Assembly (NCBI GenBank): GCA_029781795.1
Contig: JAKOWB010000231.1
Span: forward strand, 1-64,000
Direction: 5' to 3'
Source of the DNA: Pseudomonadota bacterium
GTDB lineage: Bacteria; Pseudomonadota; Alphaproteobacteria; Kiloniellales; JACOMY01
DNA length: 64,000 nucleotides
Under the pieces are notes generated by a model that worked only from the letters and a program-made list of their open reading frames with translations, was not told the DNA's origin and did not search any database. Made by a program: the position numbers and the translations under genes. Positions 49,377 to 51,679 of the stretch are shown piece by piece (the first letter of the stretch is position 1; each line of letters starts with the position of its first letter).

Positions 49377-49486
49377 GTGCCTTTCTGTCACCGCTGGCCG
49401 CGCCCTGGCAATGGTCCGGGGCAGTGGAAGAACTGGGCCAAGGCCGACGCTTGGCCGGAGGCTTCGGCTGTGCCAAGGCTTCCGCC

Positions 49487-50614
49487 ATGCCCCTGGGTCC
49501 GCTGCAATCCGCCCTGCTTACCTGGTACGACCGCGCGCGGCGCGTGCTGCCCTGGCGCGCCGGGCCCGGCGAGACGGCCGATCCCTACCGCGTCTGGCTC
49601 AGCGAGATCATGCTGCAGCAGACCACGGTGGCGGCCGTGGTGCCCTACTACGAGCGCTTCCTCGCCCGCTTCCCGACGGTGGAGGCGCTGGCCGCCGCGC
49701 CGCTGGAGGCGGTGCTGCCGCTCTGGGCCGGCCTCGGCTACTACGCCCGGGCGCGCAACCTGCACGCCTGCGCTCGCGTCCTTGTGGCCGAGCATGGCGG
49801 GCGTTTCCCGCGCGACCTCGCGGCGCTGAAGGCGCTGCCCGGCATCGGCGACTACACCGCCGCCGCCATCGCTTCCATCGCCTTCGACCAGCCGGCGGCG
49901 CCGGTCGACGGCAACTGGGAGCGCGTGGTGGCGCGCCTCTATGCCGTGACGCAGCCACTGCCGGCGGCCAAGGGCGAGCTGCGCACCCTGGCGGCGGCGC
50001 TGATGCCGGAACGGCGCGCCGGCGACTTCGCCCAGGCGGTGATGGACCTCGGCGCCACGGTCTGCACCCCGGCGAAACCGCGCTGCCTCATCTGCCCGCT
50101 GCAGCCCTGGTGCCAGGCCAACGCCATCGGCCTCGCCGAGGCCTTGCCGGCGCGCGAGCCCAAGGCCGAGCGGCCGACACGCTATGGCGCGGCCTTCCAC
50201 CTCTGGCGCGCCGACGGCGCCGTGCTGCTGACCCGCCGCCCGCCCAAGGGCCTGCTGGGCGGCATGATGGAGCTGCCGGGCACGCCCTGGCTCGCCAGCC
50301 CGCAGGACGAGATGGCCTGGCTCAGCCAGGCGCCGGGGCGCGCCGCCTGGCGGCGCCTGGCCGGCACGGTCGGCCACACCTTCACCCACTTCCATCTGGA
50401 ACTGGCGCTCTTCGTCGCCGAGCGGCCGGTGGCGGCGCATGACCTGCCGGGCGAGGCGCGCTGGGTCGCGCCGGCCGACCTGGGGCAGGAGGCCCTGCCC
50501 AGCCTGATGCGGAAGCTCCTGAAGCGCAGCCTAGCCGAAGCCGCTCAGAGCGGCAGCATCAGCCGCGGCCCGACCGAGACGAAGCCCAAGCGGCGGCCAA
50601 GGGCCATCGAGTAG
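49487..50614 (+). CDS. mutY: A/G-specific adenine glycosylase
   Basis: 375-residue base-excision enzyme that removes adenine opposite 8-oxoguanine. The catalytic glutamate is in WLSEIMLQQTTV (E40), the HhH-GPD segment is LPGIGDYTAAAIASIAF, the aspartate is in APVDGNWERVV, and the [4Fe-4S] cysteines are in CTPAKPRCLICPLQPWC. A C-terminal NUDIX-like domain senses oxoguanine. The last 25 residues are a basic tail that abuts the AT-rich island. The ATG at 49487 follows AAGG; an upstream GTG frame (49424) is less likely. Confidence 0.95.
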   Translation: MPLGPLQSALLTWYDRARRVLPWRAGPGETADPYRVWLSEIMLQQTTVAAVVPYYERFLARFPTVEALAAAPLEAVLPLWAGLGYYARARNLHACARVLVAEHGGRFPRDLAALKALPGIGDYTAAAIASIAFDQPAAPVDGNWERVVARLYAVTQPLPAAKGELRTLAAALMPERRAGDFAQAVMDLGATVCTPAKPRCLICPLQPWCQANAIGLAEALPAREPKAERPTRYGAAFHLWRADGAVLLTRRPPKGLLGGMMELPGTPWLASPQDEMAWLSQAPGRAAWRRLAGTVGHTFTHFHLELALFVAERPVAAHDLPGEARWVAPADLGQEALPSLMRKLLKRSLAEAAQSGSISRGPTETKPKRRPRAIE

Positions 50615-50629
50615 CAGCTAGTCAGACGG

Positions 50630-50990
50630 AGCTAGACGGTGGAGCTCGTCATATTTCTTACTATAGCGGGCCTGATAGTGATCTTGCTTTACAAGATTCA
50701 TAGGTTGTTAGGCGTCATATACGCCGCCATAGAAGCGAAGAAAGTAACGGGACTAACTCGGGCAGATTCTATCGAATCACTTTGTAGCGTACTGTATACA
50801 ATATTTAATCTGTCTGATAATAAGAGAAAGAAATATTTGATAATGAAACAAAACTGGCCGTCATTAATTATACTTGTAAGATCGAGCGAGATAGCAGTTT
50901 TTGTAATGATAATTTTTCTTTTAACTAATATGAAAGCACGCTGAGAGAATACCACGGAAGCGTAGAAAACGGGTCATTCAGCCCCCCCCA
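50630..50990. other. AT-rich island between mutY and GNAT remnant
   Basis: About 360 bases whose base content drops from roughly 70 to 30 percent GC with sharp edges. No terminal repeats, integrase or tRNA are visible at the edges; the right edge is a C-run (CAGCCCCCCCC-like) near 50980. It holds one orphan gene and adjoins a truncated acetyltransferase, as if inserted with loss of DNA. Confidence 0.7.
50639..50944 (+). CDS. Orphan small membrane protein in AT-rich island
   Basis: 101 residues. An N-terminal membrane helix (residues 1-18, VIFLTIAGLIVILLY) and a C-terminal one (about 78-96, SEIAVFVMIIFLLTNM) flank a basic central segment with DNKRKKYLIMKQ. No family was recognised. The GTG start has GGAG 7 bases upstream. 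Codon use is totally unlike neighbours (AAA, ATT, TTA, AGA codons); bases 50761-50940 are 30 percent GC. It is probably a recent acquisition. Translation is plausible but unproven. Confidence 0.55.
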   Translation: MELVIFLTIAGLIVILLYKIHRLLGVIYAAIEAKKVTGLTRADSIESLCSVLYTIFNLSDNKRKKYLIMKQNWPSLIILVRSSEIAVFVMIIFLLTNMKAR

Positions 50991-51018
50991 ATTGCGATGA
51001 CTCAGAGTTCTGAATGCA

Positions 51019-51192
51019 TGGAAGCCCGTGGAGCATATCCTCGCCCGGCCGCCAAGCGCTGGTGGCCTCCAACCTCGCCAGCGGCGTCACCTTCTCCGGC
51101 GGCAGCAGGGTGCCCAGCAGGCGGTGCACCAGCAACGCCACGGCGGGCGCGTCGGCGGCCCCGGCCATGCGAATCGTCGGCGTCTCGGTCAT
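51019..51192 (-). pseudogene. GNAT acetyltransferase N-terminal remnant
   Basis: 58 codons from an ATG at 51192 read TIRMAGAADAPAVALLVHRLL, then LPPEKVTPLARLEAT, which looks like the first helix and loop of a GNAT acetyltransferase. Similarity ends at about 51019, where the frame runs on into unrelated sequence and stops at 50974. The acetyl-CoA motif A is missing. The break lies at the edge of the AT-rich island. Confidence 0.55.
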
Positions 51193-51252
51193 GGCCGCTG
51201 GACAGCGCGCGCCCCGCGGCTTGACCACTTCCACCTGCTGCCCCGCTCTTCC

Positions 51253-51373
51253 CTGTCACCCCGGCCGAAGAGCCGGGGCGCATGTGGCGGCCATCGCCGG
51301 CGCAGGGTCCTTCATGCCGCCCAAGCTCAGTCATGGCTCCCGGCTCTACGCTGCGCTTCGGCCGGGATGACAG
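51253..51373. repeat. Intergenic inverted-repeat element, family A copy 2
   Basis: 121 bp with the same ends as the copy at 15255-15374: CTGTCACCCCGGCCGAAG at the left and CTTCGGCCGGGATGACAG at the right, inverted with one mismatch. The interior differs from copy 1. It sits between the GNAT remnant and the YciI-type gene. Confidence 0.75.
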
Positions 51374-51388
51374 TGGAGTGGGCTCGCC

Positions 51389-51679
51389 TCAGATCAGACG
51401 CCTGCCGCCGGCGAAGACCTGGCGCCAGGCGAGGATGCGGACGCTGTCGCGCAGGCCGCTGGGCCAGAAGGGATCGGCCTCGACCAGCGCCCGCGCGGCG
51501 GCGACGTCGGCCGCCTCGACCAGCCAGAGGCCGCCCGCCCCCTCGGCCCCGTCGAGCAGCGGGCCGGCGGCCAGCACCGCCGCGCGGTTGGCCTCCAGGA
51601 AAGCCAGGTGCGCCGGCATGAGGCGCGGCCGCTCGCCGGCGCGGGCGGGATCGTCGGTGAAGAGCACGGCGAAGAGCAT
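51389..51679 (-). CDS. YciI family protein
   Basis: 96-residue ferredoxin-like protein of the YciI family: LFAVLFTDDPARAGERPRLMPAHLAFLEANRAA at the N-terminus, with the group histidine (HLAFL), and GLWLVEAADVAAARALVEADPFW in the middle. Members are small dimers with possible dehydrochlorinase-like chemistry; the role is unknown. It is divergent from the LysR-type gene with 97 bases between starts, so it is a likely target of that regulator. Confidence 0.9.
   Translation of the reverse strand: MLFAVLFTDDPARAGERPRLMPAHLAFLEANRAAVLAAGPLLDGAEGAGGLWLVEAADVAAARALVEADPFWPSGLRDSVRILAWRQVFAGGRRLI

Follow-up and report, generated by a model that had tools for sequence, protein, structure and literature searches.

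The locus downstream of mutY in this alphaproteobacterial contig raises the question of how a short AT-rich stretch came to lie in G+C-rich DNA beside part of an acetyltransferase gene, and whether the single open reading frame (ORF) that it carries is a working gene. In the window (the whole 64,000-nt stretch analysed; 71.4% G+C), positions 50761-50940 contain 54 G or C among 180 bases (30.0%), the figure given by the earlier sequence-only reading and reproduced exactly by direct base count. The mean G+C of 180-nt windows across the 64 kb was 71.4% (sd 5.0). The island reported in that reading is real, and it is the sole stretch of its kind, as every 200-nt window below 52% G+C falls within 50581-51090; the remaining 29.5 kb of the 93 kb contig contained no 200-nt window below 60%. 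The left part of the low-G+C segment is about 45-50% G+C and the right part about 30%, and the outer edges were set by the positions where acetyltransferase homology stops on either side in a profile scan. A run of eight C (50982-50989), a likely site of slippage or sequencing error, lies near the right end. The features of the locus are as follows.

49424..50614, + strand: mutY, adenine glycosylase (Pfam HhH-GPD and NUDIX_4; an alternative start is the ATG at 49487)
50545..50595, - strand: C-terminal acetyltransferase remnant, RRLGFVSVGPRLMLPL plus stop, in antisense under the 3' end of mutY (profile match)
50591..50604, no strand: direct repeat of 14 nt at the left junction, imperfect (12/14 identical to the right copy)
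50605..51020, no strand: AT-rich segment, probably foreign, 40.6% G+C; outer limits about 50596-51057, from composition and the ends of acetyltransferase homology
50628..50631, + strand: GGAG, 7 nt ahead of the GTG and possibly its ribosome-binding site (read directly)
50639..50944, + strand: orphan ORF of 101 aa starting at GTG; basic middle between hydrophobic stretches at about residues 1-31 and 73-98
51046..51059, no strand: right copy of the direct repeat (12/14 identical), at the junction
51058..51192, - strand: N-terminal remnant of a GNAT acetyltransferase, 45 codons (profile positions 7-48 of 159, E 4.6e-6)

The acetyltransferase gene is not merely truncated but is present in two pieces, one on each side of the island. 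The right-hand fragment (from 51192 downwards, - strand) showed 45% identity (E 5.8e-5) to an intact 172-aa protein of the relative G042, which is itself a GNAT acetyltransferase (PF00583, E 1.4e-12, Pfam). A profile constructed from six intact members of the subfamily from relatives was run on all 1180 stop-to-stop frames (six frames) of the window, and the two best-scoring frames were the two flanks of the island, the third match having an E value of 7.4. On the left, 16 codons (50548-50595, - strand) matched profile positions 138-156 of 159 (E 0.0078), and RRLGFVSVGPRLMLPL was aligned with RRLGFVEAGPRMKVKL of the G042 protein. The two remnants lie on the same strand, in the correct order and in open frames. 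Since both flanks match one profile in order, the gene has been cut in two with the loss of positions 49-137, which no frame of the window matched in the vicinity; about 89 central residues are missing, and 0.42-0.46 kb of apparently foreign DNA stands in their place. The lost positions presumably include the acetyl-CoA-binding part of the fold, and with the central half that holds this site missing, the gene is therefore dead. Homology to the intact subfamily at both ends and the absence of the central acetyl-CoA region are the marks of a GNAT pseudogene. The same genome has no close second copy of the acetyltransferase (best E 1e-7, 25-36% identity). The sequence-only reading had described a GNAT gene retaining its first 58 codons: the N-terminal piece stands, the homology extends over only 45 codons, and a C-terminal piece with its stop also survives on the left, which was missed because it is hidden antisense under the last mutY codons. 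The final 22 or so codons of mutY (50545-50614) are antisense to the acetyltransferase C-terminus. The mutY stop (TAG, 50612-50614) lies just beyond the left junction, so that the event may have altered how the MutY tail (RPRAIE) ends.

These observations are probably best explained by a replacement of the middle of the acetyltransferase gene by foreign AT-rich DNA through illegitimate recombination, with the orphan ORF as likely passive cargo. The acetyltransferase gene would originally have ended convergently against mutY, and roughly 0.42-0.46 kb of AT-rich DNA would then have taken the place of its central 89 or so codons by short-homology joining rather than by transposition. The flanks at the top of the profile scan, the lone AT-rich island on the contig, the repeat at the junctions and the ORF without relatives all favour this replacement; it must be read together with the C-terminal remnant of just 16 residues, a donor not found and a junction repeat noticed post hoc, which would temper it. 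The insertion with deletion proposed from the sequence is strengthened by the presence of both acetyltransferase ends at the island, in the right order, on the right strand and in open frames, and its description as recent may be correct, as the frames are still open and the composition has not been diluted, the two points that bear on age.

The coordinates, GTG start and upstream GGAG previously given for the ORF hold on re-reading. Hydrophobic windows of 19 residues span residues 1-31 and 73-98 of its product, and residues 26-75 contain 8 K/R and 4 D/E. Expression would yield a small protein of the inner membrane, with hydrophobic segments at both termini and a basic centre that probably lies in the cytoplasm. 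The ORF shares the strand of mutY and begins 24 nt past its stop, so that expression by read-through from mutY is possible. Its length exceeds chance expectation, though the ORF was selected post hoc: dinucleotide shuffling of the whole island gave an ORF of at least 101 codons on either strand in 0.45% of cases, and shuffling the two compositional halves apart did so in 1.2% (either strand) or 0.08% (+ strand). G+C is lowest at second codon positions (30%, compared with 39% at the others), which lends weak support to the ORF being coding. An 85-aa ORF on the opposite strand (50698-50955) was set aside, as it showed no codon-position signal and neither viral contigs nor Pfam gave a relative for it.

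No match to the 101-aa protein was obtained with the Pfam, NCBIfam or PADLOC models, and it thus could not be placed in any known defence or toxin-antitoxin family of these collections. The PHROGs search gave no relative (best E 0.09), and neither did phage records, plasmid records and IMG/VR viral contigs, leaving it without a phage family or a viral-contig match. The genome contig collection and 58 relatives likewise yielded none, the contig-collection searches being built on exact short peptides and so detecting close relatives only. Across 385 genomes of the class there were only two weak matches, in genomes of 1.0-1.2 Mb (E 0.0016 and 0.008 per genome), which are expected by chance in 385 genomes; PDB sequence matches (E 0.09) were partial and were also attributed to chance. 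A structure prediction, suggested earlier as a check, was made from the single sequence; the model was weak (mean pLDDT 64) and gave no significant fold match in the comparison with viral folds. The earlier proposal of a toxin, a holin-like or a phage-derived membrane peptide is thus neither supported nor contradicted by the searches of PHROGs, IMG/VR, phage and plasmid records, Pfam, NCBIfam, PADLOC and PDB.

The ORF might nevertheless encode a small membrane protein that works in the host, for instance in superinfection exclusion of the phage type, as a holin-like protein or as a toxin of the membrane, retained as useful and expressed by mutY read-through. Its length is rare by chance (0.08-1.2% of shuffles), its frame is intact behind a GGAG, and the hydrophobic ends and the low second-position G+C (30% vs 39%) point the same way; however, hydrophobic segments at both ends were seen in 16% of residue shuffles of the protein, the lack of relatives in any collection searched leaves no test of frame conservation, no antitoxin, lysis or phage gene adjoins it and the structure model is weak, so that a functional protein is considered unlikely. 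That it is an expressed membrane protein of a previously unseen family, recently acquired and kept downstream of mutY, is distinctly unlikely. More likely, the ORF would be passive cargo, perhaps a fragment of some phage or plasmid not yet sampled, and not a gene under selection in the host.

A third possibility is that a small mobile element (a MITE, a cassette or a decayed insertion sequence) entered an acetyltransferase gene already shortened by deletion. The direct repeat of 14 nt, imperfect but present at each junction, and the 7 exact bases shared by the flanks would suit such an entry, and the repeat is a candidate target-site duplication. Its 12/14 identity has a chance of about 1.6% in 36-nt G+C-rich flanks, a value judged post hoc, and 19% of random flank pairs would share an exact 7-mer. 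Against a mobile element, the island has no terminal inverted repeats or transposon ends and the genome contains no second copy of it, inverted ends and repeated copies being marks of an insertion sequence or MITE; its ends are not structured, RNA folding of either strand being no more stable than shuffles. No tRNA lies nearby, and Rfam gave nothing near a curated threshold over 50400-51500. This reading, which also needs a second event, is very improbable: simple transposition without one does not explain the 89 missing codons. Short-homology replacement fits best.

The acetyltransferase was not found near mutY in any of 109 other mutY loci, 29 in relatives, covered with flanks of 1.5 kb, and 80 in named alphaproteobacteria, with flanks of up to 4 kb, the genomes used for comparison including one other of the host's family; no empty site was seen among these loci, and the direction, the age and the single-event origin of the replacement are therefore what we infer. 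The assembly is a draft of 454 contigs with 7.8% estimated contamination, and although this and the uniqueness of the segment to this genome might suggest an assembly artefact, the flanks are two ends of one gene, which a chimera is not expected to rejoin, and the island lies inside a 93 kb contig of otherwise even G+C, which makes an artefact highly improbable.

The event can be read cleanly at this locus, where captured foreign DNA has split a gene and the two remnants act as a ruler for what happened. In other respects it belongs to the ordinary turnover of genomes, with DNA captured laterally and a gene lost. The orphan protein would become important only once its expression and conservation had been shown. 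Compared with GNAT acetyltransferases (PF00583), the two remnants follow the order of the intact subfamily proteins that they match, whereas the locus lacks the central half with the acetyl-CoA site. AT-rich ORFans of bacteria are commonly ascribed to phage sources, and the present ORF resembles them in being short, AT-rich, without homologues and beside a disrupted gene; the phage searches gave no relative that would support such an origin here. Homology-facilitated illegitimate recombination is a known process (PMC3240628), in which small linear DNA is integrated through homology at one of its ends while the other is joined illegitimately. Unlike the events described there, the present one is read from sequence alone, with no homologous anchor or donor found; it resembles them in that foreign DNA has apparently replaced resident DNA with no mobility genes and with little homology at the junctions.
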